NCBI GenBank assembly: GCA_946811185.2
Contig: OX328106.1
Location: forward strand, 30,812,426 to 30,876,425
Direction of reading: 5' to 3'
DNA: 64,000 nucleotides
From: Hippopus hippopus
Lineage: Eukaryota; Mollusca; Bivalvia; Cardiida; Cardiidae
A program made the translations under genes and the position numbers. The notes beneath the pieces were generated by a model that searched no databases, was not told where the DNA came from, and saw only the letters and a program-made list of their open reading frames with translations. Below, one piece after another: positions 10,436-50,575 of the stretch (position 1 is the stretch's first letter; each line of letters begins with the position of its first letter).

Positions 10436-10476
10436 TCTCGCTCGCGCTCTCTCTCTCTCCCTCCCCTTTTCATTTT

Positions 10477-10544
<68 letters not shown>

Positions 10545-11939: not shown

Positions 11940-12145
11940 TGTAATTTTTTTTACCAGTATTACGCACAATATTCTTTCCAAGCCACTGGCTGCTTTCCCA
12001 CATAACAGTCGTCGAAACAATGGTCAACGTTGAGAGAGGAATGAATCCTATCGAAATCACTATAAGCAATCCTAAGAAAAAATTAACCGAGCCGGGAAAC
12101 CAACCAACGACGCCCTGTTCTCAAGTCCTTTATGGTTTCTTTATC
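11940..12145 (-). mobile_element. SINE copy (unit B)
   Basis: Counterpart of 4440-4640 with the shared block CCAAGCCACTGGCTGCTTTC. Here it runs directly into the next SINE module at ~12160 without the unit A-specific segment. Confidence 0.65.
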
Positions 12146-12159
12146 CAGTGCTCCACACA

Positions 12160-19373: not shown

Positions 19374-19521
19374 AATAGAATAATTGGTTCGTGTCTGAAA
19401 TGGGTCAACTTTTTCGGGCTCGGCTTCGGAATTTATTAGGTTCGCCTGCGGCTCACCTAATAAATTCCCACGCCTTGCCCGAAAACTTGACCCATTTCAG
19501 ACACTAACCTATTATTCTCTA
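19374..19521. mobile_element. Long hairpin element inserted in a Tc1 relic
   Basis: Arms of about 60 bases with few mismatches: CTGAAATGGGTCAAC and TTTTTCGGGC on the left pair with GCCCGAAAA and GTTGACCCATTTCAG-like sequence on the right. The hairpin centres on a short loop near 19441-19455 (TCGCCTGCGGCTC). Its right border coincides with the end of the Tc1 helix-turn-helix reading frame at 19519. Confidence 0.7.
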
Positions 19522-19760
19522 TCTCCAAGCCTGGCTAACCAAATATCGATCATCAGCTGCAGATGTAGCCCTTTTCCTGCCACAACCATGTCGCCTGATA
19601 GGTGAACCATACTGCTGGTACCTCGCCCAGGCTCTGGTGATAACAGTATGGAGCACAAGTGCCTCACATACCTCACGATAAAGAGCCCCTGGTTCCAACA
19701 TTCCAACTGCCCACCACATGTCTGCATCTGATAAATGCCTTCTGACATTCGAATTTGCCA
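19519..19760 (-). pseudogene. Tc1/mariner transposase N-terminal helix-turn-helix fragment
   Basis: The last ~76 residues of a minus-strand ORF ending at 19519 contain RRHLSDADMWWAVGMLEPG, VITRAWARYQQYGSPIRRHG and GRKRATSAADDRYLV. This order is typical of Tc1 transposases: a paired-like DNA-binding domain (start of HTH, ...ISRLWxRYxxTG...), then the GRxRAT AT-hook-like motif, then the DDRY motif. The frame stops right after DDRYLVSQAWR at the border of the hairpin element, so the DDE domain is missing. The N-terminal ~75 residues of the same ORF have no Tc1 likeness and are ignored. Confidence 0.75.
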
Positions 19761-20103
19761 TATTAACGTCCAAAACGTTCAGCCTTTCAAAAGAAAGTGA
19801 AGAATAAAAGAGTTTACACAAGTTTTGTACATGTATGCAGCGTCTCGAAACACTATGAAAATAGAGAGTATCTGCATTTACGAGACTTGCACGAGGAATT
19901 TGCCTGTCAAATAAGGCAATGTGTGCACTAGAGACCTTCTCGATACACCACTGAATGATTTCCAATATTAACATCACAAAAATATAGGATACAGACTCTA
20001 CTATGGTGCTACGAAATGTTGGTGCTTAGCAAACTTTGAGTAGTGTACTGTTAGTCGTTTTCGAAAAGGTCTTCAAAAATATTTCGCACAAGAAATCTCA
20101 ATG

Positions 20104-27837: not shown

Positions 27838-28046
27838 AGATTAGATATTGATTTAACTCATTGTTGGAAAAGGATCAGTTGCAGCTGGAAAAAAAGAAAT
27901 GTGTCTGAAAATACATGTAGAATGTACAGTAATCGGTTGTAGAAATACTAAATAGCCAATAAGTAAAAAAAGAAATAGGATTATCCCTTATTATATCCAT
28001 TTGCTAAGATGTGGATAGATAGGTAAAGTTAGCTACTAGTAGCCAG

Positions 28047-30799
28047 TTCTCTCGTGCATTTAAACTCTCTTTCATTCAATACGAGCATTCAGTTTCAAAA
28101 ATCCCTCTTAGGCTCGCCAGCAACCTTTGCCTTTTGATTTCACTCTTAAGTAAAATTGAAAAATATCCCCATTTTCATGACAAGTAGCTGGCCCCTTAAA
28201 TGGATAAGAATGGATTGATTTTGATATTGTTAATTTCTCCTAAGTGTCCCCAAAAAGTTTTGTTGAAATATTTCGAAAAATCTCTTTTAATCTCGCTAGC
28301 TACTTGTACATTTGAAATCATTACTTCGAAAAACAGCAAAATTGTACAGTTTTCAAATCAAGTAGCTGGCCCCTTTAATAACCGGAAATGATTCAGTTTG
28401 AGTTTTCTTATGCATTCATGGTATCTATTATTCAAAACAAGCATTTAATTTCAAAATTCGCTCTTAGGCTCGCCAGCTACTTGTAACTTTTGTTTTCACT
28501 CTAAGTAAAACTGAAAAATAACCGCATTTTCCTGACGAGTAGCTGGGCCCTTTAAATGATAAGAATGGATTGATTTTGATACCTTTCATTTCCCCTAAAT
28601 ATCCTCAATATGATTTGTTGAAATATTTGAAAAAGCTCTCTTAATTTAGCCAGATACTTGTACATTTTAAATCATGATTTCGCAAAAGTGCAAAGTTGTC
28701 CCATTTTCAGATCAAGTAGCTGGCCCCTTTAATAACCGGAAATGCTTCAATTTCGAGTTTGCTCGTGCATTTATACTCTCTTTTATTCAATACGAGCATT
28801 CAATTTCAAAAATCGCTCTAAGGCTCGCCAGCTACATGTACCTTTTGATTTCACTCTAAGTAAAATTGAAAAATATCCCCGTAGCTGGCCCCTTAAATGG
28901 ATAAGAATGGATTGATTTTGATATTGTTAATTTCTCCTAAGTGTCCCCAAAAGTTTTGTTGAAATATTTCGAAAAATCTCTTTTAATCTCGCTAGCTACT
29001 TGTATATTTGAAATCATTACTTCGAAAAACAGCAAAGTTGTCCCGATTTCAAATCAGTAGCTGGCCCCTTTTATAGCTGGAAATGCTTAAATTTTAACTA
29101 TTTTAGTGCATTTATCATCCCCTTTATATAAAAGAAGCATTTAATTTGTTATACTCGCCAGCTACTTGTACCTTTGAATTCCTCTCTAAATGAAATTGAA
29201 AAATGTCCCGATTTTCACGACGAGAAGCTGGCCACTTTAATAACCGGAAATGATTCAATTTTGAGTTTTCTCAAACATTCATAGTATCTGTTATTCAAAA
29301 CAAGTATTTAATTTCAAAATTCGCTCTAAGGCTCGCCAGCTACTTGTACCTTTTGATTTCACTCTAAGTAAAATTGAAAAATATCCGCATTTTCATGACG
29401 AATAGCTGGCCCCTAAAATGAATAAGAATGGACCGATTTTGATGTTTTTAATTTCTCCTACGTATCTGCAATATGATTGGTTGAAATATTTTGAAAAATC
29501 CCTCTAAATCTAGCCAGCCACTTGTACATTTTAAATCATGATTTCGCAAAAGTGCAAAGGTGTCCCATTTTCAGATCAAGTAGCTGGCCCCTTTAATAAC
29601 CGGAAATGCTTCAATTTCGAGTTTTCTCGTGTATTTATACTCACTCTTATTCAATACGAGCATTCAATTTCAAAAATCGCTCTTAGGCTCGCCAGCTACC
29701 TTTGCCTTTTGATTTCACTCTAAGTAAAATTGAAAAAATGTCCACATTTTCATGACGAGTAGGTGGCCCCTTAAATGGTTAAGAATGGATTGATTTAGAT
29801 ATTGTTAATTTCTCCTAAGTGTCCCCAAAAAGTTTTGTTGAAATATTTTGAAAAATCTCTTTTAATCTCGCTAGCTACTTGTACATTTGAAATCATTACT
29901 TCGAAAAACAGCAAAGTTTTCCCATTTTCAAATCAGTAGCTGGCCCCTTTAATAGCTGGAAATACTTAAATTTTGACTATTTTAGTGCATTTATCCTCCC
30001 CTTTGTGTAAAACAAGCATTTAATTTGTTAGACTCGCCAGCTACTTGTACCTTTGAATTCCTCTCTGAGTGAAATTCAAAAATATCCCAATTTTCACGAC
30101 GAGTAGCTGGCCCCTTTAATAACCGGAAATGATTCAATTTTGAGTTTTCTCGTACATTCATAGTATCTGTTATTCAAAATTCGCTCTAAGGCTCGCCAGC
30201 TACTTGTACCTTTTGATTTCACTCTAAGTAAAATTGAAAAATATCCGCATTTTCATGACGAATAGCTGGCCCCTAAAATGAATAAGAATGGATTGATTTT
30301 GATGTTTTTAATTTCTCCTACGTATCTGCAATATGATTGGTTGAAATATTTTGAAAAATCCCTCTAAATCTAGCCAGCTACTTGTACATTTTAAATCATG
30401 ATTTCGCAAAAGTGCAAAGGTGTCCCATTTTCAGATCAAGTAGCTGGCCCCTTTAATAACCGGAAATGCTTCAATTTCGAGTTTTCTCGTGTATTTATAC
30501 TCACTCTTATTCAATACGTGCATTTTCAATTTCAAAAATCGCTCTTAGGCTCGCCAGCTACCTGTGCCTTTTGATTTCACTCTAAGTAAAATTGAAAAAA
30601 TATCCGCATTTTCATGACGAGTAGGTGGCCCCTTTAATAACCGGAAATGATTCAATTTTGAGTTTTCTTATACATTCATAGTATCTGTTATTCAAAACAA
30701 GCATTTAATTTCAAAATTCGCTCTTAGGCTCGCCAGCTACTTGTACCTTTTGATTTCACTCTAAGTAAAACTGAAAAATAACCGCATTTTCCTGACGAG
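28047..30799. repeat. ~175-bp satellite array, left block (about 15-16 monomers)
   Basis: The phrase AGTAGCTGGCCCCTTTAATA recurs at about 28361, 28539, 28714, 28880, 29055, 29227, 29402, 29580, 29758, 29936, 30104, 30261, 30438 and 30620, a spacing of 157-182 bases. Each monomer also carries the inverse word GCCAGCTACTTGTAC, so GTAGCTGGC and GCCAGCTAC alternate in opposite orientation. At least two monomer types alternate (AAGAATGGATTGATTTTGAT versus AACCGGAAATGNTTCAATTT), suggesting a ~350-bp higher-order unit. Short ORFs here are repeat artefacts. Confidence 0.92.
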
Positions 30800-30801
30800 T
30801 A

Positions 30802-31230
30802 CACTGTAAAAAATAATTGTGCAAGTTACACCAATGATAGTGGCAACTCCGCTGCCACCAATATGAGTGCGAATTTACACCGGCTTAGTTATGAGAAAAC
30901 TTACACGTTTTGTAGCGTAAATTATTTTTGTACGGCGTGTTATTTAACACTTGGAAAACAGAATAAATGTTGCACCAATAATGGTGGCAGCGAAGTTGCC
31001 ACCATTTTGCGTGTACTTTTACACCAAAACCTGGGAAAGATAAGACCGGATTCAGTCATAATATTCACCAACTTTGGTGTAAGTTTATACAGTACAATGG
31101 AATAAAGATTACACCAAAAGAACTTCTCTGACACTGATTTTGGTGCATTTTTACACACAAGGTGAGGACAGGTACTCCTTAACCAGTGTGAATTTAGTAG
31201 AATATTCGTCATTTCTTACACCAACACGGG
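30802..31230. promoter_or_regulatory. Left terminal and subterminal repeat region of the CACTA-like element
   Basis: After the 12-bp terminal repeat, TTACACC or close variants occur at about 30826, 30875, 30901 (TTACACG), 31018, 31109, 31152 (TTACACAC) and 31216. Two local hairpins share GGTGGCA / TGCCACC, the clearest at 30984-31004. In plant En/Spm, short subterminal repeats bind the element-encoded protein TnpA; by analogy these may be binding sites for the zinc-finger module here. Confidence 0.65.
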
Positions 31231-31745
31231 AAAATCATGTCACCATTTGGGACTTTTTCTATTCATATTTCGAAAAATAAAGTACATAATAAGTAGCGGC
31301 GGCAGACAAAAATCTTGAGTGTTCACAGTTGGCTTTTGTCCTAGTGGGCTTCTGTCCTAGTCGGCTTTTGTGCTACACCCTATTCACAGGTAGGGTCATA
31401 TGTACTAAACTTTTGGCTTTGCAAAACTGGGTAAATAGTTGAAATTAACAGCATCCGCCTAAAATTCTAGTCAATACGAATAAGTAAAGGTCCAGACCCA
31501 GAATGTTATAGATTATGGAGAATGTGTTTGTGTATATAATGACAACATTTATATAAAAAATAATAATTTTATTAAAATTTTTATCCAAGAACCACAATAA
31601 GCAGAACTGCTAGTATAAGCTTATTACCTGATATCTAATAGATATAACTTGTCTTGCAGTTATCTTTTTAACAAAGATTATGTTTTTTTTAAGATATATG
31701 AAGTTTAAATCTTGGAAACATTGTGGGACAAGGAGGATTTGCTTA

Positions 31746-31971
31746 TCTCTTTACCAAATGACAAATTTATAGACTGGTCCGAATTGAAAGCATTTGCAGA
31801 CGACAAAATAAATATGACTGAAGAATCAAAATTTGATTAGGGAAGGGTAGAAAACATTGTGGGAAAAGGAGAAAATGCTGGTTATCAGCATTTTCTCCTT
31901 TTCTAACAATGTTTTCATAAGGCTTCTACCTCAGGGTCATCAAAAGTCGTTATTGTGTGCTAAAGTGTTAA
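31746..31971. mobile_element. HP1 hairpin MITE, full copy (inside the CACTA-like element)
   Basis: Left CTTTACCAAATGACAAATTT, central GAGAAAATGCTGGTTATCAG / CATTTTCTCCTTTTCTAACA, right GTTATTGTGTGCTAAAGTG. Just upstream, 31332-31380 contains three ~16-base repeats of GGCTTTTGTCCTAGTC type. Confidence 0.85.
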
Positions 31972-32551
31972 AAGTAATTTTCCTTTTTCCCACAAGATGT
32001 TTTACCTCATACAAGCATTCCACGTCAAACCAAAAATTAATGGTTTTCAAAATCATATTTGGTTAGTTTAAATTTTTGGTTGATGAAACTATATTGTTAA
32101 TCATAACAATTCTGTCTGTGAAGGCATTTTCGCCAGTATGTTAAACTACATATGAGTTTGGTAAAGGATTAATGTAGATAACCTCTTAATCTCATAAATT
32201 GATACTATGCTTAGCAGGCAAATCATCCTGGTACAAGTGTATTAGCTTCACACAAAAGCTGTCCTTCGTCTTTTACCAGAAAATCCCGTGTTTATACAAT
32301 CTGACAAAAATGAATTTTGAAACCGTGCGTGCAAAAGAGAAAATGCTTGATACCAGCAAACTTTCTCTTTCACACATTACTTTTTACCATATTTATGACC
32401 AGTTTTCCTTTTCCCAGAATATTTTCTACCATGTTAGATAAAATAAACCTGATTGCTTGGAAAAAATTCTCACATTTACCTATGTGAGTACACTGCTGGT
32501 TGTGTAAATAAAATAAAACCAAATATGTCTCATGTATTTTCATGAGTAGCA

Positions 32552-32779
32552 TTAACCCTTTCCCAAACAAGCCCTCGTTTTAATGTGTCTGCAGTACAAG
32601 TCTTTTGAAAACACTGCTGGAAAAGGAGAAATTGCTCGTAACAAGCAATTTCTCCTTTTCCTACAGCGTTTTCTACCCATTTGGAGAACTTTGTGCCATT
32701 TTCATCAAATTTAAAATTGTTGTCTGCAAACGCTTTCAGTTTGGAAGAGTCTAAAATTTGTCGTTTGAGAAAGGGTTAA
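32552..32779. mobile_element. HP1 hairpin MITE, full copy with variant palindrome
   Basis: Ends TTAACCCTTTCCCAAACAAG and TTGTCGTTTGAGAAAGGGTT-AA. The palindrome reads GAGAAATTGCTCGTAACAAG / CAATTTCTCCTTTTCCTACA. Compared with the common ATGCTGG/CCAGCAT form, several bases on both arms differ together. A partial copy (32860-33000) and a degenerate one (32330-32430) are adjacent. Confidence 0.85.
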
Positions 32780-33120
32780 AAAAAGGCAGTTAAAAATACA
32801 ATATAACAATGAAAGTTGAGTAGAAACGAGCAGACAGCAAAACAAAATGAACTAGAACTGTCGCAAAGCAGACTTATACCCCCCACCAGCATTTTGTCAC
32901 TCAAGTACCACAAATTGCTCATTACAACCATTTTTTTTCTTTTTCCACAGTGTTTTTGAAAGGCTGGGCATTTGTAAACACCTGCATTTGATAACAAATG
33001 AACCACACTCTCATTCAAAACATCATCAAATTTATGTTTTATAAGCTAATTCTAAAAGTATGTCCCATGTATTTCAAAACGATGGAATCAGTGAGCATGA
33101 GAAAAAACTACTTCCATTTC

Positions 33121-33350
33121 TTTAATTCATTACTAAACGACAAAATTTAAGGTTTGTCCAAATTGAAAGCATTTGCAGACAACAAAATAAAAGTGACTGA
33201 AAAATTGAAATTTGTTTTGTGAAGGGTAGAAAACATTGTGGGAAAAGGAGAAAATGCTGGTAACCAGCATTTTCTCCTTTTCCCACAATGTTTTCTAAAG
33301 GCTTCTTCCTTAGGATTGTCAAAAGTAGGGATTGTGTGGTAATGGGTTAA
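33121..33350. mobile_element. HP1 hairpin MITE, full copy
   Basis: Left TTTAATTCATTACTAAACGA, central perfect palindrome GGAGAAAATGCTGGTAACCA / GCATTTTCTCCTTTTCCCAC at about 33244-33290, right ATTGTGTGGTAATGGGTTAA. Confidence 0.88.
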
Positions 33351-33589
33351 CTAAAGAAATGCAAACAAGCTCAAGCTTTGGAATTTCAATCAAAGGTAAA
33401 CAAGCATTCTGAAAGTATTGCATGGCAATACCAAGTCCCCTACCGGCTGTATATATTCCTGGAGGTATAACATCCTTTTAGAAGTAAAAGAAGGTACTTG
33501 ATCCCAACTAAGATATAAGAATTGTGTCTGTCTTTGTATGCATTGCTTTTAAGAATGCCAGAGATGTGCCTTTTTGTAAGTTCATTTAA

Positions 33590-34375
33590 GAAGTTTCCAA
33601 ATCAATGAACAGTTTACTAAGTCCAAGGCCCATAATTTCGTGAAAAATCAATAGAGCGTTACCCCCCGGAGCGAAGTCAAATTTGACCCTCGGCTATAAT
33701 TTGGACACCCTTGGTACAGGTCCACTAGATAAAGCTACATGCCAAATTTGGTCGCCCTACGCCCCATGGCTAGGTCAAAGAAGAAATTTAAAGTTCTCCC
33801 TATATAAGCCCATGTAAAACTTGTTATATAAGCCCATGTAAAACTTGTTACCCCCGGGCAGGGCCTAATTTGACCCCAGGGCTATAATTTGAACAATCTT
33901 GGCAGAGGTCCACTAGATAAAGCTACATGCCAAATTTGGTAGCTCTAGGCCCTATGGCTAGGTAGAAGAGGAATTTTAAAGTTCTCCCTAAATAAGCCCA
34001 TGTATAACTTGTAACCCCCGGGGCGGGGCCAATTTTGACCCCAGGGCTATAGATTGAAGAAACTTGGTAGAGGTCCACTAGATAAAGCTACATGCCAAAT
34101 TTGGTAGCCCTTGGCCTTACGGTTTCAGACAAGAAGATTTTCAAAGATTTTCAAAATTTTTCAGTTTTGTTGCCATGGCAACCAGAGTTTTTGAAGGAAT
34201 TAAATTCTTTCAAGAAATTCTGAAGAGGACCATGGCAGGATCATTTCTGTGAAGTTTCATCAAAATTGGATGGGTAGTTTCAGAGAAGAAGACGTTTTAA
34301 AAAAAAGTTAACGGACGGACGGACGGACGGACAACAGGCCATGACATAAGCCCGCTGGCCTTCGGCCAGTGGAGC
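33590..34375 (+). repeat. Dispersed repeat with ~180-bp tandem units and a (GGAC)n tail
   Basis: The units share CCACTAGATAAAGCTACATG and CCAAATTTGGTAGC at about 33722, 33910 and 34076. The end holds ACGGACGGACGGACGG and then GGCCTTCGGCCAGTGGAGCT before AAAA. Repeats ending in GACGGAC...GAGCTAAAA are common in molluscan genomes. It lies between the F-box gene and the left end of the CACTA-like element, probably a later insertion. Confidence 0.75.
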
Positions 34376-34394
34376 TAAAAACTATTCAATCCAG

Positions 34395-35117
34395 TTATGG
34401 GACTGAAAAGTTTGACTTCCACAGACCAATACAAACATTTTTGTACTGTGACATACACATCAAAAGTTCCTTTTTTGTTACATTTGCATTTAACTTTATT
34501 CTAATGGATTCAAGTGAATCACATTTTGCAAGCACGCATTTCAAATCATTTAAATCAAATTCAACTGTACACAGTTCTAGGTGATGTACGGAACGACTTA
34601 TAAATTTTGCCACAGTCTTTCCGGTCAATTGTGTGAATCCTGCATCAAGATAATCCAAGTTCTTACATTCTTCCATATATCTAAATGTATCATCTGATAA
34701 CAAATGACATGAACCTAATATAAGTGTTTCCAGTTTTTTGCAACCCACTAAAAATTTCAAATTTTTCAACGGTGTGAATGAAAGATCAAGCCATACAAGA
34801 CAATGTGAATGTATTAAACTTTCATTCACAACGTCATCAAATCCATCTTCAACAGCCTGATTCTCAAAGTGTATCCCAGGGACATCAAAACAATGAAAAC
34901 AGTGAGCATGACAAAATAAGGTTTTCATTTGCTGAACAGTAGAAAAGCAAACAGGCTCAAATCTGTTTTGAAGATCAATATGCCGCCACACACATGATGA
35001 TGATTTTATTAGCTGATAAAAGTATTTACACACTAGGGCTAGATTGATCAGAGCATCTTTCAGGCCAACATACTCCAGGATCCGCAATAGGGCAACCTCT
35101 GGCAGAAACAAAATCAT
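34395..35117 (-). CDS. F-box and leucine-rich-repeat protein encoded inside the transposon
   Basis: A 240-residue protein from an ATG at 35117 to a stop at 34395. F-box domain at residues ~4-50: LPEVALLRILEYVGLKDALI, then LALVCKYFYQLI and VWRHIDLQ, with the conserved LP, L..VC..W pattern. The rest resembles FBXL-type repeats with LVWLDLSFTPLKNLKFL, CKKLETLILGSC, CKNLDYLDAGFTQLTG and SVHHLELC. F-box proteins link substrates to SKP1-CUL1 ubiquitin ligases through the F-box; LRRs usually bind the substrate. The start was chosen because a strong 3' splice site (TTTTTTTCAG) sits 2 nt upstream of the ATG; the longer upstream ORF is intronic. It is in one coding exon and on the same strand as the transposase. 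It could be captured cargo, or the last ORF of a polycistronic transcript. Target unknown. Confidence 0.82.
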   Translation of the reverse strand: MILFLPEVALLRILEYVGLKDALINLALVCKYFYQLIKSSSCVWRHIDLQNRFEPVCFSTVQQMKTLFCHAHCFHCFDVPGIHFENQAVEDGFDDVVNESLIHSHCLVWLDLSFTPLKNLKFLVGCKKLETLILGSCHLLSDDTFRYMEECKNLDYLDAGFTQLTGKTVAKFISRSVHHLELCTVEFDLNDLKCVLAKCDSLESIRIKLNANVTKKELLMCMSQYKNVCIGLWKSNFSVP

Positions 35118-35826
35118 GCCTGAAAAAAAGAGAAAAGTCAATCTACAGCTTATGGCATAAACAGCTATCAAGAAACAAACTATACTCTTCCAAATTGATG
35201 GCAAAAGTAACATGGTTCAATTTCGAGAGTATTTACCTTATATGGCAGAAAATAACATTGGAAAAGGAGCAGCTGCTCATAACTTGCAAAAATCTCCTTT
35301 TTGCCACACAATTTTCATAACAGCATTTATGTCAATATGTTAAGCATGGAACTGCATGGTCAAATTTAAAAGTAAGGTTTCAATTTCTGCAACACATAAG
35401 GATAAACAAAACCAGTCATGCAGCATTGTACTCCTGATTTGAAGTTTAAGAATCTTTATCCCATACTGAGTGGAATAAAAATTTGCCCTTCTGCACTTCA
35501 GTCCACACATTCAGTATAACTTTTCCCTGGTATATACTCCTTTCAACACATGGGGAGCAATTTCTTTTTTTCCTACAATATTTTCACCTGTATCAGTGTT
35601 TTAAACTCCCACTGAGAGCTGTTTTGACTTGTTGTCTGCAACTTTTAATAATTATCAAACTAGGAGGCAATAATTTGTGTTCTTTAAATTATCCTTTACT
35701 TCATAGACACACTTTAGGTAAACTAACTCACATTTCAAAGAAACAGTTGGAAAATGGAAATTTGCTAGTCACATGCTGCCATAGAAACCATATCTGAAAA
35801 TGGTCTATGGGACAAAGGACTTTTAG

Positions 35827-36048
35827 CCCTTTACCACACAATAACAACTTTTGACGACCATGAGAAACAAGCCTTTTGAAAACGTGGGAAAAGTAGAAAA
35901 TGCTGGTAACCAGCATTTTCTTTATTTCCCACAATGTTTTCTATCCTATCAATAAATAATTGCACCATTTGAGCCACAATGAAACTGTTTTCTGAAAATG
36001 CTTTCATTTTGGACAGGGCTAAAATTTTGTTGTCTGGTAAAGAGTTAA
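35827..36048. mobile_element. HP1 hairpin MITE, full copy in an intron
   Basis: Ends TAGCCCTTTACCACACAATA and TTGTCTGGTAAAGAGTTAA, hairpin AGAAAATGCTGGTAACCAGC / ATTTTCTTTATTTCCCACAA. It lies in the candidate intron between the SAMD3-like second exon and the F-box exon. A degenerate copy is at about 35240-35330. Confidence 0.85.
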
Positions 36049-36068
36049 GAGACATCACTTTATCTTAC

Positions 36069-36359
36069 TTGTAGTTTTCCTCTTAGTGTCAGCACCTTCT
36101 TAGGTATTTTTGTGTGCAGCTCCAACAGTACAGCTTCCACAAATGTCCAGGTATTAAAAGCCTGTTTTGGAAATTCTATGTTGAAAACGTAGAATGCACT
36201 TGTAGCATGGAATATGGCATCCAAAAGGTTGTTGAAGCTGTGAAGGATTTGACCTTCAGTTATAACATATACTGTTGTTGGTCTGTAGGGATTCCCAACA
36301 ACAGCAGCACTGGGGGTTCTTGGCGCATGATCTTTGACTTCATCTATTGAAGCATCAGC
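36069..36359 (-). CDS. PB1/SAMD3-like protein, second coding exon (C-terminal part)
   Basis: 97 codons in one frame between a 3' splice site (TTTCTTGAAAG, before 36359) and a 5' splice site (CAA|GTAAGA at 36069/36068). Both borders are phase 0, matching the end of the first coding exon at 37504. The peptide contains NPYRPTTVYVITEGQILHSF, then LLDAIFHATSAFYVFNIEFP and ends LTLRGKLQ. The YVFNIEFP-type motif is typical of the C-terminus of the SAMD3-like proteins expanded in fish and invertebrates; this likeness is from memory of the family, not a search. If spliced to the acceptor before the F-box ATG it would gain one Ala codon and stop at TGA. Confidence 0.7.
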
Positions 36360-36607
36360 CTTTCAAGAAATTAAACATATATTTACTATTTTTTCCTTTT
36401 TTTTTTTTTGTCCCCTTTCCTGATCTATACTCATTCAACAAATTGGATGGAAAAGGCTTTGGGAATGGTTAAAAATGCTCATTACAAGCAAACTCACCTT
36501 TTCCAACATTTTTTTTATATGCAATCAGTTTTTAACAATCTCATGCGTATCAGTATGCAAGTTGTTTGCAAGTTCTATAGATACCAGACATTCTCAAAAT
36601 TATGTTT

Positions 36608-36821
36608 AACCCATTACCACACAATACCCTGAGAAAGAAGCCTTTTGAAAACATTGTGGGAAAAGGATAAAATGCTGGTAATCAGTATTTTCTCCTTTTC
36701 CCACAATGTTTTCTACCTTTCCCAAACCAAGTTTAATTTTTTCAGTCACATTTATTTTGTCATCTGCAAAAGCTTTCAATTTTGGCCAGTCTACAATTTT
36801 GTCGTTTGGTAAAGAGTTAAG
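36608..36821. mobile_element. HP1 hairpin MITE, full copy in an intron
   Basis: Ends TTAACCCATTACCACACAAT and TTGTCGTTTGGTAAAGAGTT-AA, hairpin GATAAAATGCTGGTAATCAG / TATTTTCTCCTTTTCCCACA with a few mismatches. It lies in the intron between the two SAMD3-like coding exons. Confidence 0.85.
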
Positions 36822-37047
36822 GGAAAGATAACCGTGGTTATCATTTCACATGAAGTAGTCTGTTCCTACACAACTTTAACAAATGTACAGAAAATGTCTA
36901 TAAAACCTCTATGTGAGAACATATAAATTACTTACATTTGTGTATAATATAATGAGTAATTTCCCCTTTTCCATAATTCTTTCAATGGTTTGAAAAGTAT
37001 GAGCCACAAATTTCACACAAATACAGTTTTGTCCCATAAATACAGTT

Positions 37048-37275
37048 TAACCCTTTACCAAAAGCAAAACTGTAGACTTGACCAAATTGAAAGCATTTGC
37101 AGACAACAAAGTAGATGTGACTTAAAAACTGAAATTTCTCATTGGAAGTGTAGAAAATATTGTGAGGAAACGAGAAATGCTGTTTACCAGTATTTTCTCC
37201 TTTTCTCACATTGTTTGCAAAAGCCTTCTTCCTTCAGGCCATTAGAAATCAAGATTGTGTGGTAAAGGACCAAAA
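37048..37275. mobile_element. HP1 hairpin MITE, full copy in an intron
   Basis: Left TTAACCCTTTACCAAAAGCA, hairpin GAGAAATGCTGTTTACCAG / TATTTTCTCCTTTTCTCACA, right GATTGTGTGGTAAAGGACC. Same intron as the copy at 36608. Confidence 0.82.
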
Positions 37276-37503
37276 TAAATGATCTCTAAATATCATAGGT
37301 AGTAACAGGTAAAACTTTCCGAGTAGCAACTGAATGGTGATCTCATGCACTTTGCATTGCAATACTAGAGAGGTTTCCGACAAATTTTTGTTAACAACTA
37401 TTAAATATGAAAAAAATGTTTACTATCAGTCTCGGGTAGTTCATTTGTAAGTAATTTTAACATTTAACCTTTGATATATACATTTCAAACTCTAAATACT
37501 TAC

Positions 37504-38670
37504 ATCATATGTACAAAAAAACATGTTCATCTTATCACCAAGCAAATGTGGAAGCAGTTGCAAAGATGCAACACACTCTGCTGCAGAAACATCCTTTGGT
37601 CGAATGTCTACATTGTCATCAATGGCAGTGTTCATCTTGTCTATTGTTTCCTTGAACACAGTTTCCTTCTTTGTTTTTGAAACTTCAATGACAGAGGAGG
37701 ACAACCTTGTACAGTTTCCTTCAAAAACTTTCTGACAATCTTTTCCTACAAGTCTACACATTTCAGACAGAAAGATATCTTTTAGCTGAAGGGCTGGGTA
37801 TTCCTCCATAATTGATGATACTGGAGGACATTCATTGATGTAAGATCTTCTATGTGAATATGTTTTCTCCATCAAATCAAACAGAAGCTGTGTATCCCCC
37901 TGTGGATCACTCATGACTTGTTTCATTTTCTCAACATGTATCTTGCATGAGGCTGTGTCTTCTCCTACAGGGAAATCAGGACTCCAGTTTTTTCCCTTTG
38001 GAGAATACTTGATTCTTTTGTGTGCAGATTGTTGAGCTTTATCCTCAGAATTGCCTTTGTGCCACTTTACAACTGGAACATTCAAGTTTCTGCGCACATT
38101 TTTCAGTTTGTCTCTTAAACATTGTATCCACCCATCATATCCACTTCCAATTTTCTCTGACAGATATGGATATGTTCTAATGATGCACTTAGCAACTGAT
38201 GTGACTTCCTGCAAGTTTGGGTAGTATGTGTATTTGAAAATGTCATCTACAATTACACCTAAAAATTCATGCTTATGTGACCATGTCAGATATTTTTCTT
38301 CAAATAGTTGTTTTTGAAGTATTCTTGAGTATTTCTCTTCTGATATAACAAAATTCTCTGGCCAGTTTGAGTTTTGTTGATCTACATTATAAGCCTCATT
38401 CAAGGAACCAGAGGCAACTGATGACAAAGAGTCATTGTCTGAGATTCTTTTTCTTAAACACTTTAACTTGGTACGTGTTTCAAGTTTCCCTAGGTCACTA
38501 TCTGACAAGTCTATGTACTCATCCCAGCTAGTATCATATCTTTGAATGTTAATTTCACTCTGAGCCTCTATCCCAAAACATATCTTTATACAATCTGGTA
38601 GAGAGCAACCCTCACCAACATTGACAACTTTTGTCATTGACTCAAATTTTACCAAAAATTCTTTCTCCAT
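37504..38670 (-). CDS. PB1/SAMD3-like protein, first coding exon
   Basis: 389 codons from ATG at 38670 to a 5' splice site (TATGAT|GTAAGT) at 37504/37503. A 3' splice site (TTTTTTTTTCAG) lies 7 nt upstream of the ATG, so a non-coding leader exon is implied. The N-terminal ~70 residues, MEKEFLVKFESMTKVVNV... to WDEYIDLSDSDLGKL, look like a PB1/ubiquitin-like fold. The middle has FLGVIVDDIFKYTYYPNLQE and KIGSGYDGWIQCLRDKLKNV, patterns of the uncharacterised SAMD3-like protein family. The region around 230-390 is charged and ends LLPHLLGDKMNMFFCTYD. Joined with the second exon the protein is about 486 residues. The function of this family is not established; its place in the transposon suggests an element-encoded accessory factor. 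Confidence 0.75.
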
Positions 38671-38754
38671 CTTGCACCTGAAAAAAAAAAAACCTTTAAA
38701 GAGTAGTTTACAACTACCTTCTGGCCTCTTATTGAATCCAGCTTATTCTAAAGT

Positions 38755-39590
38755 AAGTATGCATGAAAATAGGAAAATATTTTAGGTAAGAGCAACTGCT
38801 TCTTTTCCCAATAATGTTTTCAGATCTATCAAAAAATTAACTTACTTTCTTTTTTTCATACACATTGATGTAGCCTTCTATTTGCCATCTGGCTGGATGC
38901 CCCTTTTAAAAGCCTATATAGTAACAACTAACCCTTTACCAAACAACTCAATGTTTTAACTAGTATGACAAAAATGCTCTTTAAAAATACTCTGCAAAAG
39001 GACAAATTGCTTGAAACAAGCAAACTGTCCTTTTCCCTCAGTAGTTTCTACCATATTATGTAATACACAATTCACTTGATCATATTCATTGCAACAGGAT
39101 TAATTCATCTCTCACTGCTGATCATTGTTTTTGACAACGGTTATGTTGGAAAGCAGCCAGTGGCTAAGTAGGAAGAAAGTTGTGCAAAGTACTAGTATAA
39201 GGAAACTCCAAGAGAACATGGATAGGTGCAGTGGCTGCCGCAATATATCTGAAATAATGTGAAATGTTTAACACTATACAAACACACTCGCTATCTTTAA
39301 CTACATTTATGTTGTCATGTGCATAATACTTTCAATTTGGAAGAATCTACAAAGTTTCATTGGTAATAAGTAATTTGTTTGATTATAAAAAGAGTAAAAG
39401 CTTTAACCCCTTGCCACTGAAATAGAGATTTTTATGGATGCACAGAAAGTGCCCCTTGAAAATGTTTAGGGAAAGTAGAAATTGCTTATAATGAGTAATT
39501 TATTCTTTAACCACAGTATTTTTCCTTAGCATCCAAAATATATGCCACAGTATACATGTCTCACCAAACGAAAAAATTCCTCTTTTCAAA
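38755..39590. repeat. Cluster of degenerate HP1 fragments around a SINE
   Basis: HP1-like pieces at about 38770-38900, 38934-39060 (hairpin GGACAAATTGCTTGAAACAA / GCAAACTGTCCTTTTCCCTC) and 39405-39540. They fill the ~1-kb spacer between the transposase and the SAMD3-like first exon. Confidence 0.6.
39115..39265 (+). mobile_element. 5'-truncated SINE inside the CACTA-like element
   Basis: Contains GAAAGCAGCCAGTGGCTAAG, GTGCAAAGTACTAGTATAAG and GAGAACATGGATAGGTGCAG, the tail half of the same SINE family as in 1-15 kb, in the opposite orientation to the element's genes. The tRNA head is missing. Confidence 0.75.
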
Positions 39591-39663
39591 CAATGTTTTT
39601 GAAAGACATGTATACATTTTACACAAAGGTTTGTTGGTTTGTTTGTTCACAAGCAAATGTAAC

Positions 39664-40861
39664 TTAGACAAAATTTGAGATATATTTACCTACTCCCAAA
39701 CTCTCTGCCTTAATAAAATGTTTCAGGACCACATACTGTTTATTTCCTATTCTGTACATGTCTAGAGGAAGAGGATCAATCAAGTCACAAATGAAAAAAC
39801 ATCTTGTTGTAGTTGTTCTTATAATTTCCTGTGCTCGCAGATGTTTACTATGTCTGCTGGTATAATCATTGCAAATAAATCCAACCATATCCTTCTGGAC
39901 AACAACTTTTAATATTTGGGACATGATCGGTTCATCAGCATAAAACCCACTAACCAGGAAACAACCTAAATAGTATGTAATTCCCTTTATAGATATACAT
40001 TTAACTGAAGTACACTGATGTATATTGAATCCTTTCTGTTCTAATTCATAACTGTATGTGCTCAAGTTGTTGTCAGCCTTAAAAGTCTTTATTTCCACCA
40101 TGGGCTTTGTTTTTTCTGAATTACCAATGTAGGCTTGCAGGTTTTGATGTCTCTCTGCTAGTGTAAGGGGCAAGTTTTTATAATTACCAAGGCGAAGTGA
40201 AATTTGTTTGAAGTAGCTATGTTTTGCTTCAAATCGCATGCACCAACAAGATCGAAGAGGTCCATATTTCAGTATCATCTCCGGATAATGAATCAAGTAA
40301 TGATGTTTTGGTGTCATTCTTACAGATGGAAAAGTGTTTTTTAACAAGAGGTGATGATCTGAAATAAGGGATTGAAGAAATGGGCATATTTTCTTATCTA
40401 AAGTAGGACTCATCACTATTTCAATTATATCTTTCAGCAACAGCAAAATTTCCCATGCCGTATTGTCTTCAGGGATAAAGTGTCCAATCATTAATGGTAA
40501 AAGACGAAGAAGGGTCCACATCTGACTTGCACTTTGAGATATTATACTATCTAGCTTCTTTGGTACAGCAGGTTTATTAGTGACATCACATTTTCCGTAA
40601 TTGAATATGCAAATCTGAGAGCAGATTTGTTTTTCAGTTAAAACACCATCTGATACAAGTTTCTTTAAGACAATTGATATTTCCTTCTTTGCACATCCCT
40701 CCAAAAGATCATGCATACAGTCTGGGGGCAAACCCCTTGTAACATGAAAATGTTTCAAACTATTCAAAATACTATTTTTTTTAACACCAAAAACTGACAT
40801 AAAAGATGCATCTTTTTCAACTTCCTTTATTTGATGAGTGTAATTTTCCTCATTCTGTGTA
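39664..40861 (-). CDS. DDE transposase, C-terminal part (frame 3 of 3)
   Basis: Continues the transposase after a frame break near 40861. The frame runs from TQNEENYTHQIKEVEKDASF through HVTRGLPPDCMHDLLEG, where the Asp/Glu near 40700-40715 is a candidate third catalytic position. It continues with MTPKHHYLIHYPEMILKYGP and RSCWCMRFEAKHSYFK. This block order is characteristic of EnSpm/CMC-type transposases of fish and marine invertebrates. The frame ends at a TAA at 39664. A good 5' splice site (GTAG|GTAAAT) lies at 39690/39689, so the last ~9 codons may be replaced by splicing. Confidence 0.8.
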
Positions 40862-41590
40862 ATAGCTTGGATCATAGTGATCTTGAATTTCTTCTGGGGT
40901 TGCCATACAAAAGCGGCATATATGCGAGACATTAACCCCAAAACTCTCAAAAAATCCCCCTATTTGGTGGCTCCCTAAATTATCCGCACATATATAAACA
41001 ATAGTACCCTTTATGTAACTTTGTATTGCTTCAATGAATATTCCATCCGTTTCAAGGATTTTTAAATCAAAAACTACTGGTTCCAACATCTTATTCATAC
41101 CAAATTCTTTCAAATCTACAACTGGGCAAAGTAAACACAACTGAATTGATTTCAAGTCAGATCGTTCAAAAATGTGAATGTTTGCTAATGCCATGTATAC
41201 TGCAGCAAGCTTCTGTTTCCCCCTCTTTGATCCTAAAGGATTAACCACTTCAAACTCATCAAAATACAGGACAACTTGCAGTGCTGCAGGATTTGTTTGA
41301 AAAAACTCATTTTGAGAAAAAAGTAGGCCATCTGAAAAATCTTTTAGACATTCAGTCGCAGACTTGTAACTTCCTCTCATAACTACAGAAAGTGTTTCTT
41401 CTGATTTCAGCATACATTTCAGCACTTCTAAAATTGGTATGTATTGGTATTGCCTTTCCTTGTGCTTACTATTAAGGCCAAAAGAGATGGTAATGGGTTT
41501 TACATAATCAAACTTATTTATCAAATACTTTTTTCTTTTATATGGTGTATCCATAGCACTAACTACAGACTGAAAGATATTGCCTGTCAT
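40850..41590 (-). CDS. DDE transposase, catalytic core (frame 2 of 3)
   Basis: From the ATG at 41590 (MTGNIFQSVVSAMD...) to a TGA at 40850. Key blocks: KRKKYLINKFDYVKPITISF, then ALQVVLYFDEFEVVNPLGSK with the candidate first catalytic Asp at about 41258, and KGTIVYICADNLGSHQIGGF with the candidate second Asp at about 40983. HICRFCMATPEEI follows. The ATG overlaps the stop of the zinc-finger frame as ATGA within a run of six A. At the other end the reading must shift near 40861 to stay with the family. The ORF can be extended upstream to 41692, but that part overlaps the zinc-finger frame. Confidence 0.8.
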   Translation of the reverse strand: MTGNIFQSVVSAMDTPYKRKKYLINKFDYVKPITISFGLNSKHKERQYQYIPILEVLKCMLKSEETLSVVMRGSYKSATECLKDFSDGLLFSQNEFFQTNPAALQVVLYFDEFEVVNPLGSKRGKQKLAAVYMALANIHIFERSDLKSIQLCLLCPVVDLKEFGMNKMLEPVVFDLKILETDGIFIEAIQSYIKGTIVYICADNLGSHQIGGFFESFGVNVSHICRFCMATPEEIQDHYDPSYYTE

Positions 41591-42405
41591 TTTTTCTGAA
41601 CTTGAGTCTGTATTTCTTCCTTTACCCCATTTGCCTTGAGGACTGACAATACAGCTGCTTTTGAATTTTCCAAAGTTTGGCTGACAGTACATGACATTTC
41701 ATCTAATATTGTATTAAGAGTTGAAACTGGCAGATGCTCAAGTTCTTGTAGTCTCATCAAACTTTGAAAAAATGTGGATTGAAAGGTATCTATTTCCGAC
41801 TTCCCATCATCATTGGAAGAGACATTCTGAGACTCTGTATCATTAACATCATCATCTAAAACAATCTCTCTGTGAGAACTTTGTAATCCAGTAATATCCT
41901 CATTTACAACAAAAATTGATCGGTATGTTTCTTTGAAATTCTGTGTGGTCATGAAAGAATGTTTGCGGGTCAAATGAGATGAAAATGAACTTGAAAGTGC
42001 ATAGGTGTTATCGCAGTTCTCAAAAGGACATTGAATGGACATGCCTGTATCAATATGGTGTCTCAAGTGCTTTATCAAATCTGATTTTTTGCATAATAAA
42101 TGCCTATCACAGTAGATGCACTTTATATCTTCACCTTTGGATTTACAACTATCTTCCCCATGCTGATCTTTGATAACTGTTGATGACGACATTGCTCCTT
42201 CATCTTTGCTACACAGACTGCTTCTATGTTTTCTGTAAATATGACACTTAAAGGAGGAAAATTTTTTGAAAGTGATTGGACAACCATTAATTCCACAAGT
42301 CAGAAAAAACCGTGCATCCCCTCTATGATTCCTTGAAACATGACGGACATAATTCGTTTCGTCATTCACTTCGTATGCACAAAACCCACACTGCATTTCG
42401 AACAT
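41587..42405 (-). CDS. Four-finger C2H2 zinc-finger module of the transposase unit
   Basis: 272 residues from ATG at 42405 to TGA at 41587. Four C2H2 fingers: C-GFC...H-VSRNH (residues ~6-28), CGINGCPITFKKFSSFKCHI with a following KH (~36-60), CIYCDRHLLCKKSDLIKHL with HH (~95-117), and CPFENCDNTYALSSSFSSHL with RKH (~125-150). An acidic linker (LDDDVNDTESQNVSSNDDGK) and a helical region LQELEHLPVSTLNTILDEMS follow. N-terminal C2H2 fingers ahead of a DDE domain are usual in this transposase group and probably bind the element ends. The frame closes at KKTGA exactly where the catalytic frame opens. Either a one-base loss in AAAAAA or a genuine two-ORF arrangement would explain it. Confidence 0.8.
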   Translation of the reverse strand: MFEMQCGFCAYEVNDETNYVRHVSRNHRGDARFFLTCGINGCPITFKKFSSFKCHIYRKHRSSLCSKDEGAMSSSTVIKDQHGEDSCKSKGEDIKCIYCDRHLLCKKSDLIKHLRHHIDTGMSIQCPFENCDNTYALSSSFSSHLTRKHSFMTTQNFKETYRSIFVVNEDITGLQSSHREIVLDDDVNDTESQNVSSNDDGKSEIDTFQSTFFQSLMRLQELEHLPVSTLNTILDEMSCTVSQTLENSKAAVLSVLKANGVKEEIQTQVQKK

Positions 42406-43384
42406 AAAGTGAAACCGCTCAAAGTGAACACATTAAACAATAGTCTTTCTTCTTGTTTGAAGATTAAATACCTTGTTCGTATTGACTATCGATGGTAATG
42501 TTGAGAGTATTTCCGTGCAGAACCATGTGCAGTCCGTCTCCCAGGTCTCCCAGCATGTCATGTCAGTCTGCGACTGAAAAAAGCTTCGAACGTTTCTTGC
42601 GGTAATGAGCGTTTGCGATGCGAGGACTTCGACTTTCAAGGGGAGTAACTCTAATAAAGTATAGTAACGCCGGAAATTCAAACGTTACACCAAGATCGGT
42701 GCGACTTGGTGTAGGTTGTTATATAGATACCTACCTTAGATCTACCAGATACAAACAATTTCATTAAAAATTATTTTTTAAATATTAATATCCACGTGAA
42801 AATACAGCCGCTGTTGTTGTAAACCTTGTTCGATTAGCGTTTAGCGATACAAGTTGTTTGGATTTAGGATGGGATCAACAATAACTGTTAGATCTACAGA
42901 TCTAGATACGATGCATTCTACCTGATTTTGGACGGTTCTAAAATGGTAAATCAGGGAAAGGACTTTTTTTTTTTAGACTACAGCGTATAGGATCACTTCA
43001 CGAAGAAAAAGTGACTAGGTTTGTGCAGGGACAAATGTTTACCTCTCAATGAGACGATTGGTTACTCAAATGAGTAAGGAAACTCCTTTCTCAAGTTTAT
43101 TGAACGCGCTGCATGGTGTTTCTATACACCGATTGGTAAGATAGCACTGAAAGTAGAGTGACTTTTCCGAAAGGTGCAGTCTTACACTAAGTGCAGTGTA
43201 AGAAAACATAAATCGGTGTTTTTAAGACATAACACAATTACCGGTGTAACATTATCCGAGATAGAAGATTAACTTTCTTAAAACGTGTTACATAACTGCT
43301 TATTAAGTGTAACTCAGTGTTACACTACTACTTGTGTCAAATAACCCGTATTATAGAGTAAAATAACACATTTTTTTTACAGTG
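42406..43384 (-). promoter_or_regulatory. Right subterminal region, likely promoter and leader of the transposon genes
   Basis: Upstream of the transposase on the same strand. TTACACC-type words in both orientations occur at 42685 (with GGTGTA at 42707), 43182-43200, 43247 and 43300-43345, mirroring the left end. A possible leader exon ends at a 5' splice site AACAAG|GTATTT near 42474. The 82-codon ORF at 42433-42681 has no domain and is treated as leader. The region between 42750 and 43180 is otherwise featureless. Confidence 0.5.
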
Positions 43385-43386
43385 TA

Positions 43387-46806: not shown

Positions 46807-47247
46807 TCAAGAGTGGTTTTGAATAATATGTCTTACAATTGACCATCTTTCTAAATCAGACTCAGAGGATTTTGTTTCTTTGCAAATAGTCCAAGCCAAA
46901 TATAAACTATTTTGAAGGCCATAAACTGTCGGGATTTTAGATTTAGATTTACAAGAAGCGACATATCTTTTGACATACAGAAAGAGTGTGTATAATTTGT
47001 CATCATTATTGAATGTACCAATTAGAACGTTGACACTATTTATAAGTCTGTGTTTTGATGGATCTACTTCTCTTATTTTTGATTCTAAATACTGAAAAAG
47101 GGTTTTCACCTTTTCACATCCGTAAAATACATGGAGCAGACTTTCTTCACTAGTATTGCAAAAACAGCATAGGTTACTTGGGGCAATGTTCATTTTGTTT
47201 AATAGGGAGTTAGTGGGGAAAAATCTATGAACTATTTTTATTTGCAT
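46807..47247 (-). pseudogene. LINE ORF2, C-terminal zinc-knuckle region
   Basis: 146 codons with IVHRFFPTNSLLNKMNIAPS, then LCCFCNTSEESLLHVFYGCE: a C-x2-C...H...C cluster like the zf-RVT segment after reverse transcriptase in L1/Tx1 elements. Separated by a frame change from the upstream ORF ending at 47314. Confidence 0.75.
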
Positions 47248-47313
47248 CCATTGGATATACGAATCGTTTGTATTTCTAAAAATATTATTATAAATGTCTT
47301 TCCAATCAAAGTT

Positions 47314-49010
47314 TTAAGTAGGGAACAAAGATTCCCATTTCTTTTGACTAGTAGGAATTTCATTGTTATCAATAAGTGCTTTATAAACTGTTTTGTTAGG
47401 TTTTTTATTTATCAAAATTTCATTTAAATAGCTATTAATACAGGGATTGGCATAGTTTAAAATAAAATTTTCATCGTTATTAGTATCAGCCTTTCTTGAG
47501 AAATTTTGGATAGTGTTTATCAGACCATAATACCTCAAATAGTTAATTTTTTTACCTAAAATCGTCTCTATAGACTTTAAGCCAATGAATTTCCCATTGT
47601 TATCCATTAAGTCTCGGACATTTCTAAATCCTCTATCGTATAAGTCTTTGACAAAGATGACTTTTGAGTCTATTGTAAAATTTTCGTTGTAGAACAAAGG
47701 CATATTTAATATCAAGTCCCAAGAGTCAATTTTAATTTTTGTCATATATTCTATGTATGATTTAAGTACGTCTCTCCAGAAATCGTTTTTTATTACTTTA
47801 GAGATGAGTTCGGAATAAGCTTTTCCTAAGTTTATTATTTTTCGTACGTCCATCATGTCATATACTAGCTGATAGCATTTATTAGGTTTACAATTTATTA
47901 GATTTTTAAGCCATTTTAATTTCATGCTAGCGTTAAAGCTTTTGATATCTATAATTTTCATACCACCTTCTTCATAGTTTTTAATAAAAACAGATTTTTT
48001 TATTTTTGCCCTTCCTTCCCATACAAAGTTGTATAGTAAATCGTTTAAACGTTTTATGAAATCTGTTTTCGGAGAAGGGAGACTTATAAATAAATGCGTT
48101 AAAAGTGGAACAAGAAGTGATTTTACAACAGTTATTCTACCAGTAGGTGTAAGTTTTCTTCTTTTCCAGTACGCTATACATTTTGAAATATTTTTAAGTT
48201 TTGGTTCATAATTTAAATCTATCATCTTATGAAGATTAATATCAAAAGTTAATCCAAGTAGCACAAATTGAGTTTCACCCCAATTTAATTTCCATTTAGT
48301 TTTTATCGAATATGCACTATATTTACGTGACCCTATCCAAATCAACTTTGTTTTATCAAAATTGCACTTTAATCCAGAGATAGCATAGAACTTGTCAAGT
48401 ACTTCTAAAACGCTATTTAATGATTTTTCCGAGCCGTCTAGTAATAATGTAGTGTCATCAGCGAATTGGCTTATGAGATATTCAGTTTCTTTCACCCTTA
48501 TACCTTTAATATTTTTGCTTTGTCTAATTTTAATGCTTAAGATTTCAGAGCATAGGATGAAGATTTATGAAGAAATAGGGTCTCCCTGACGGCAGCCCCT
48601 CTTTACCGTAAAGACATCTGATAGAAAACCATTTAACTGCACACTTACTTGTGTATTATACAAAAATAATTTTATCCATTCTTTGAGTATAGGACCAAAT
48701 CCAAAAAAGTCAAATGTTTTTAAGATAAAGTCAAACGATAACGAGTCAAAGGCTTTTTCAAAATCTAGTAGCATTAATAGGCCAGGTATGTTATTGTCTT
48801 CACAGTATTTCATTATGTCATAGATTAAATAGGTATTTTCTCCCGCGATCCTTAAGGAAACCTGTTTGGTCACTTGAAATTAATTTGTCTAATACGGTTT
48901 TTAGTCGATTTGCTATTGTTCCAGACGCTATTTTATATAAAACATTCAATAAGGTTATCGGTCTCCAATTTTTTAAGAACTTTTTCGGTTTATTATCTTT
49001 TGGGATGCAT
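47314..49010 (-). pseudogene. LINE ORF2, reverse transcriptase (split over at least two frames)
   Basis: Upstream part (around 49000-48880): CIPKDNKPKKFLKNWRPITL and LLNVLYKIASGTIANRL. ORF 48873-48565: LLMLLDFEKAFDSLSFDF (motif A) and FTVKRGCRQGDPISS (motif B). ORF 48495-47314: LISQFADDTTLLLDGS with the catalytic FADD at about 48465-48454, then the thumb and connection region. All signature motifs are present but frame breaks near 48870 and 48540 prevent one continuous product. Confidence 0.88.
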
Positions 49011-49310
49011 GTTATGATTCCTTATTCTATAGAGCTAGAAAAAGAGTCGTTCAATAGGGCGTAATTTAGGGATCTAACAACAAAATGTCCAATCTTAGGC
49101 CAAAAGACCTTAAAGAAGTTTGCTGAGAAGCCATCAGGACCTGGGCTTTTGTCATTTGACATTTGTTTTAAAGTCAAGGATACCTCTTGATAATTCAAAA
49201 GACCTTCTAGACTTTTTGACTCGACATAATCTAACTTATTTACTGTACAATTAAGTAAAAAATCAGTTATACTAAAATCATCTTGGTTATCTTGTTCTTT
49301 ATATAGGTTT

Positions 49311-50575
49311 TCATAAAATATGTAAGATTTCCTCTTGATTACTGGTTATTTCGCCGTTTTGTTTTTCTATAAAACTTATTGACTTTGCTGAATTGTGTTG
49401 TTTTTCAAGATTGCAAAAATACTTGGTGACTTTTTCGCCTTCATCTATCCATTTTGAGCATGATCTTACAAAATACCCTTTAAGCTTTTCGTTTTTTAAT
49501 TTTTCTAATTCATCCTGAAGTTTAATTAATTTTTCCTTGTTGTTTTCATCTAAGGATTGTTCTAATTGCAATATTTTGGCCAAAAGTAGTTTCTCACGAT
49601 TTGATCTTACTTTACTTTTATGACTAGCAAAAGAGATCGTTTTTCCACGAATCTCCATTAAAAGGGTTTCTAAAAAAAGCTGATCATTGATAACTAGTTG
49701 TACTTGTGATCTATCCATATTTGTTACATAATCATGGTCATAAACAGGTAAACAATATTGTAGTAATATCTCTTCAATTTTTTTATTAATACAGGTAATA
49801 TAATCAATATCATGCAGCAAGGAATTATTGAATTTCCAAAGGCCTTTTCCGTGTTTGATTTCCGTAAATTGTAGTTCAATTAAAATAATTGAGTGGTCAG
49901 ATTGATAACTAACATCAATATCACAATTCCTTAAAAGTGGTTTAAGTTCTTTGGAAAGCAGATAAAAGTCGAGTCTTCCTTTTTGTAAAGGATTAAAACG
50001 TTTCCAAGTGTAGTTTCGTGAGTTGCCATGTAGTTCCCTGAAAGGATCCACAAGATTTCTATCATCAATGTATTTTTAAACAATTTTCCTTGCTTTTTTG
50101 TTGTGGCCACTGTTTCTATAATTTTCATAATCTAAAGCTGAATCAATGACAAGGTTAAAATCTCCACATATAATCAAGTTTTCATTGTTCGTAAAGGAAT
50201 CAATTTCATCGAAAATATTTACGAAAAAACTTGGGTTATCATTGTTAGGTGCATATAGAGTTGTAAGGATAAAGTCAATATCACAAAAGCTCAATTCCAT
50301 TATTAAGTAATTTCCATTTTCATCTTTTTTGAAACTGAGAACTTTAATATCTAAATGCTTTTTAAATAATATTGCGACACGTTTTGAATTTGAAGTAACA
50401 TGACTAAAGTAGCAATTTCCATCCCACTCGGAATAAACACTTTTTTCAATTTGGTTTGTAAAATGTGTTTCTTGTAAACATAAAATATCGGTATCTTTTC
50501 CCTTAAAAAGGTTAAACAGATCTTGTCGCTTCTTGGCATTATTTTGACCTCGGCAATTGTATGAACAGATTTTCT
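49311..50575 (-). pseudogene. LINE ORF2, endonuclease and linker (split over several frames)
   Basis: ORF 50300-50076 holds LTTLYAPNNDNPSFF and LIICGDFNLVIDSALDYENY, typical of the APE-like endonuclease (GDFN motif). In another frame near 50490-50460 the sequence encodes a CLQETHF-like segment (usual QE-TH catalytic motif). ORF 50051-49311 has SYQSDHSIILIELQF (the SDH motif) followed by a coiled linker. At least two frameshifts lie in this region. Confidence 0.8.

Follow-up and report, generated by a model that had tools for sequence, protein, structure and literature searches.

The stretch of DNA analysed here, hereafter the window, comprises 64,000 nucleotides from the bivalve Hippopus hippopus (C11:30812426-30876425). 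Between positions 30802 and 43384 it holds a unit of 12,583 bp whose genes lie on the minus strand: a transposase gene (39664..42405), a gene with the working label SAMD3-like (exon 1 at 37504..38670, predicted exon 2 at 36060..36359) and an F-box/leucine-rich repeat (F-box/LRR) gene (34395..35117). An earlier reading of the letters alone (the "sequence-only reading") had proposed that this unit is a CACTA-like transposon with CACTG...CAGTG ends, a TA duplication and subterminal repeats.

The unit is bounded by an exact 12-bp terminal inverted repeat, CACTGTAAAAAA, at 30802..30813 (plus strand) and 43373..43384 (minus strand), and by a TA target-site duplication at 30800..30801 and 43385..43386. 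Only two CACTGTAAAAAA sites with one mismatch or fewer occur in the window and both are the ends of the element; since 1.4 such sites are expected in shuffled sequence, the 12-bp ends by themselves prove nothing. The element is surrounded by a satellite built of 178/356-bp units with the motif TAGCTGGCCCC, which fills the left flank (28045..30799, or to 30801 with the duplication) and resumes from 43385 on. When the 60 bp on either side were joined, the resulting 120 bp rebuilt a satellite unit and matched, at 97.5% identity, a unit of this satellite that carries no insertion. This empty site, together with the other copies described below, establishes that the segment from 30802 to 43384 is a DNA transposon inserted into a satellite array.

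The subterminal regions are rich in the hexamer GTGTAA. Counted on either strand of the second full-length copy, it occurs 14 times within the outer 2 x 500 bp (five in the 5' region, 42885..43384, and nine in the 3' region, 30802..31301) as compared to 8 times in the inner 11.6 kb (0.69 per kb). The subterminal repeats of the sequence-only reading are therefore real.

All copy searches were made in the 1.07-Gb assembly of the host genome, and the resulting counts are lower bounds. Counting the window, the 5' end of the element gave 15 matches; the 3' end matched at 14 loci, at one of which the match was split in two. We read 11 copies whole (the window copy and 10 others) and sampled 4 more, obtaining 2 full-length copies, 12 short copies and 1 truncated relative. 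The second full-length copy, on C3, is 99.79% identical to the window copy. All 11 whole copies have CACTG..CAGTG ends, identical 15-bp termini and a perfect 2-bp target-site duplication (TA in seven, and TT, TG, CA and CG in one each). With a twelfth copy that was read at its ends only and is flanked by TG, the duplication is perfect in 12 of 12 copies read at both ends. No homology in register beside the ends was detected in any pair of the 11 whole copies over 1.4 kb of flank per side (for the window copy, 0.8 kb on one of them); a repeat at unrelated positions was shared in the flank by 6 and 17 of the 55 copy pairs. The element has thus been mobile in the recent past, and the bounded unit that had been read from the letters is confirmed by its empty site, its second full copy and its duplications.

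Nine of the short copies were read whole and are ~6.4 kb each; sampled ones lie at C13:11.86, C5:30.87 and C7:61.05 Mb, the last of which contains a nested insertion. Short copies retain element positions 1-2019 and 10472-12583 on either side of a 2.3-kb filler with no open reading frame (ORF) longer than 130 codons. Of the transposase ORF they retain the zinc-finger part, and neither the SAMD3-like nor the F-box gene is present. According to the sequence-only reading, copies with the same ends but without both accessory ORFs would speak against it, and taken literally the 12 short copies are of this kind. However, because the DDE core of the transposase is also gone from them, they derive from full copies by deletion and do not speak for a foreign F-box gene. 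The truncated zinc-finger ORF is open in 11 of the 12 (in one without its first six residues), while the twelfth is split by the nested insertion. The signal of selection on this ORF is weak, given a ratio of nonsynonymous to synonymous differences (pN/pS) of 0.29-0.79 in 20 of 45 pairs, one pair without any synonymous change, and low divergence.

The truncated relative (C3:7813315-7823214) is 82% identical over its first 474 bases and then jumps to the tail of a SAMD3-like gene (67%). No transposase match was found within the 9.9 kb read there, and this copy probably goes back to an old deletion in a member of a further subfamily.

Compared with the full-length copy on C3, in which the transposase is one open frame of 915 codons, the window copy has two small deletions that each break the frame. 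This single frame rules out tiny introns or programmed frameshifting as the explanation of the three overlapping transposase ORFs of the window. C2H2 zinc fingers at residues about 2-139 (41989..42402, minus strand) gave profile matches to TFIIIA, GLI and other C2H2 chains. D475, the second D, and E728 enclose C497xxC500 and H704xxxH708 in the catalytic region, without variation among 35 of 35 sequences; this region is predicted to fold like RAG1. Residues 770-894 (39730..40104, minus strand) are predicted to form a BAH-like domain, that is, a chromatin-reader-type fold at the C-terminus of a RAG1-like core. The element's own transposase did not match Pfam Transposase_21, the tnp2-type family associated with CACTA/EnSpm proper; among 35 relatives, six match that family at E<=0.01 and four match Plavaka. 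The best-named relatives are from Ylistrum and Patella, and no relatives were found in viral contigs.

Plant CACTA/EnSpm elements make 3-bp target-site duplications, and short subterminal repeats are typical of CACTA/EnSpm. The GTGTAA enrichment agrees with the latter feature, whereas the duplication is 2 bp in all 12 copies read at both ends. As set out in the main text of PMC12730594, fungal EnSpm elements also make 3-bp duplications, and the CMC/CMCT group (EnSpm/CACTA, Mirage, Chapaev, Plavaka and ESTA) is characterized by duplications of 2-5 bp, CA..TG termini and two motifs, C(2)C and H(3-4)H, placed between the second D and the E. The element shares all three of these features: its duplication is 2 bp long, its termini are CA..TG, and the motifs in its DDE triad read C(2)C and H(3)H. 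It departs from ESTA, described there as EnSpm-like with TA duplications, in that only 7 of its 12 duplications are TA, the others being TT, TG (twice), CA and CG. Judged by these sequence features, it is a member of the CMC group and is best termed CACTA-like only, because the 3-bp duplication of EnSpm/CACTA in the strict sense is absent. RAG1, ProtoRAG and Transib are also among the closest known systems. Relative to the CMC/CMCT transposons covered in that text, the element differs in its F-box/LRR and SAMD3-like genes and its predicted BAH-like C-terminus, as well as in having a 2-bp rather than the fungal 3-bp duplication.

The F-box/LRR gene encodes 240 amino acids. Its product matched Pfam F-box-like (8e-10; 38.8 bits, cutoff 24.3) and F-box (34.7 bits, cutoff 20.5) and so belongs with F-box proteins, while LRR_4 scored 25.5 bits, just under its cutoff of 27, and matches to FBXL2/17 were weak. 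As in F-box/LRR-repeat proteins 2 and 17, an N-terminal F-box is followed by LRR-type sequence; in contrast to them, the protein is only 240 residues long, is transposon-borne and has weak sequence similarity. When compared with the window, it matched only its own gene and a decayed paralogous fragment (32998..33126, minus strand; 44% identity over 43 residues, three stops), in a search that was not aimed at host exons as such.

The first exon of the middle gene (389 codons) is open in both full copies; the second is predicted from an AG acceptor before it and a donor-like GTAAGT after exon 1. We presume a likeness to SAMD3 in labelling this gene, and its membership in SAMD3 is not confirmed. 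A SAM domain is expected of SAMD3, and no Pfam match to SAM or PB1 was obtained with the 486-residue protein or with exon 1 of three relatives. The protein had no PDB match, its predicted structure scored a pLDDT (predicted local distance difference test) of 38, and Pfam matches to NDUFA12, Fumble and others lay below cutoff and were treated as noise. An overlap of stop and start in a bicistronic SAMD3/F-box mRNA is unsupported, as a stop of exon 2 itself lies two codons past the supposed donor. Of the gene content claimed in the sequence-only reading, the C2H2 fingers, the DDE transposase and the F-box hold, the LRR-type matches are near or below cutoff, and the PB1/SAMD3 identity of the middle protein is not confirmed.

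The three genes occur together beyond the window. Transposase, SAMD3-like and F-box/LRR genes lie in this order on one strand in all seven loci that retain a DDE core of 47-100% identity: the window on C11, C3:10.513-10.505, C3:14.103-14.089, C3:7.413-7.400, C3:7.289-7.278, C4:8.697-8.707 and C5:13.413-13.423 Mb. As the sequence-only reading anticipated, the accessory ORFs therefore recur with the transposase. The loci fall into subfamilies A (n = 2), B (n = 2; 97.6% DNA identity around the F-box gene) and C (n = 3, on three contigs; 99.76%). In B and C the transposase lies further upstream than the A spacing, outside the 1.2-1.4 kb sampled at the A-equivalent position. A splice-acceptor-like CAG stands 2-3 nt ahead of the F-box ATG in A and C, which suggests that the F-box mRNA probably has a spliced 5' leader.

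Genome searches with each protein returned the same loci. Of 16 F-box matches, seven covered almost the whole protein at these loci (39-100% identity) and four were fragments at 40-44%, two of them within the full A copies and two ~5 kb downstream of the F-box gene (C4 and C5). SAMD3-like matches numbered 10: the seven loci at 41-100% (one in three pieces) and the fragment in the truncated relative, the homologues in B and C having 41-52% identity. The transposase search gave 30 matches, comprising the seven loci, some of them fragmented, the 12 short copies, of which the C7 one was split in two, and three distant sequences.

One possible explanation for this pattern is that a host locus of three genes was spread by segmental duplication and that the CACTG ends are those of some smaller element, as might be imagined from the four loci on C3 and from ends having been read in subfamily A only. 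We consider this very improbable: at two places the 12.58-kb unit is delimited exactly by the ends, with different duplications (TA and TT), no flank is common to both full copies over the 1.4 kb examined upstream and the 0.8 kb downstream, the short copies have exactly the same outer blocks, and subfamily C is found on three contigs at 99.76% identity.

Our preferred reading is that the full form is a three-gene, CMC-group (CACTA-related) cut-and-paste transposon with accessory proteins kept by its lineage, including an F-box protein that likely joins an SCF (SKP1-CUL1-F-box) ligase; we assign it a probability of roughly 0.7. The accessory proteins have diverged to about 40-52% identity, yet mostly retain open frames. 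Between A and B, the ratio of nonsynonymous to synonymous substitution rates (dN/dS) was 0.29 for the F-box gene and 0.19 for the SAMD3-like exon, and between A and C it was 0.27 for the F-box gene; these ratios are rough, because dS is near saturation (1.6-2.4, and infinite in 3 of 6 comparisons). Constraint on both accessory genes is supported by these data. The F-box gene is kept at seven of seven loci with dN/dS of about 0.2-0.3 where measurable, while the duplicate beside it in the element has decayed; it therefore seems to be a conserved component of the transposon lineage rather than one-off cargo.

Besides the saturation of dS, several observations weigh against this reading. One of the seven F-box genes, a B copy, has a stop, and the SAMD3-like gene of that copy is in pieces. 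The transposases of the window copy and of several others have stops or frame breaks, so that many copies are dead. Four of the seven loci (7.28, 7.40, 10.51 and 14.09 Mb) are on the single contig C3, transposon ends have been read for subfamily A only, and the acceptor before the F-box gene is seen in A and C only. Three distant transposase matches (C15:7.46, C3:7.10 and C14:43.40 Mb; 26-30%) have no accessory match within 100 kb, and five weak F-box matches (27-31%, all with stops) have no SAMD3-like or transposase match nearby.

These last matches may be host relatives or old relics, and they bear on another possibility, namely that an ancestor took up a host F-box gene (and a SAMD3-like gene) by chance and that these hitch-hike without benefit to the element. 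F-box/LRR genes are common among host genes, and the short copies move without accessory genes in cis. On the other hand, both genes are present in every one of the core-bearing loci across three subfamilies, with low dN/dS where it is measurable, and neutral cargo should have decayed as the F-box duplicate did. A captured passenger is therefore unlikely.

Other repeats lie in and around the element. Several palindromic repeats of ~200 bp with TTAA-like flanks, which look like miniature inverted-repeat transposable elements (MITEs) of the piggyBac type, occur in 31737-37280 and also match flanks of other copies. One at 33116..33350 adjoins the decayed F-box fragment, and others are near 31737, 32552, 35884, 36626 and 37065. 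All lie outside the coding parts of the element, as is expected if coding sequence is protected. Outside the element, minus-strand ORFs at 46807-50573 with endonuclease- and reverse-transcriptase-like sequence look by eye like a long interspersed nuclear element, and an ORF at 19519-20025 resembles, by eye, the N-terminal part of a Tc1/mariner-type transposase.

In the three-gene transposon that we favor, the zinc fingers of the transposase would bind the GTGTAA-rich subterminal regions, as their family and the enrichment suggest, and the RAG1-like DDE core would cut the CACTG ends and insert the element with a 2-bp duplication, preferably at TA. The SAMD3-like and F-box/LRR proteins would be accessory proteins retained by the lineage; the latter would most likely use its N-terminal F-box to dock onto the SKP1-CUL1 ligase of the host, to which its leucine-rich part would present a bound target. 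With nothing of the transposase left but its zinc-finger part, the short copies may be mobilized in trans and could act as rivals for the ends.

The likeliest target, tentatively, would be a host silencing or repair factor. We lean to a host target by analogy with TET/JBP genes in fungal DNA transposons, non-transposase genes for which PMC12730594 proposes a role in escape from host silencing. These are likewise borne by a transposon lineage, although there the product is a DNA-demethylating enzyme and here an F-box protein; the terms "F-box" and "ubiquitin" are absent from the main text of that paper. Next in likelihood, and nearly as likely, is self-regulation, in which the F-box protein would ubiquitinate the element's own transposase or SAMD3-like protein and so limit copy number. 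The few full copies (two, in subfamily A) as compared to 12 short ones and the conserved linkage of F-box and transposase genes would fit this possibility; however, low copy number has many causes. More doubtful is the further-reaching idea of a counter-defence by targeted protein degradation, in which a RAG1-related animal transposon lineage would encode its own SCF substrate receptor and destroy a host silencing or repair factor, with the chromatin-reading BAH domain of its transposase directing the site of action.

Accessory genes also define lineages of Kolobok transposons, where according to the main text of PMC9587614 the proteins are nucleases, a helicase or KolX; here they are F-box and SAMD3-like proteins, and the term "F-box" is absent from that text. 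No description of a CACTA/EnSpm-type element with an F-box or SAMD3 gene was found among the titles and abstracts listed in full-text searches of the open-access literature.

Accessory genes of DNA transposons reveal how mobile elements meet host control. The linkage of the three genes at every closely related core-bearing locus suggests that the element may exploit the host protein-disposal machinery for its own ends, and an F-box gene that a cut-and-paste lineage has retained across three subfamilies suggests the ubiquitin system as a site of conflict, a proposal that is directly testable given that the element is young and some frames are intact. It would further follow that transposon genes may account for some multi-copy "F-box" and "SAMD3-like" models in annotated animal genomes. 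The predicted RAG1-like core with its BAH-like tail provides a further relative for comparison in work on how V(D)J recombination arose.

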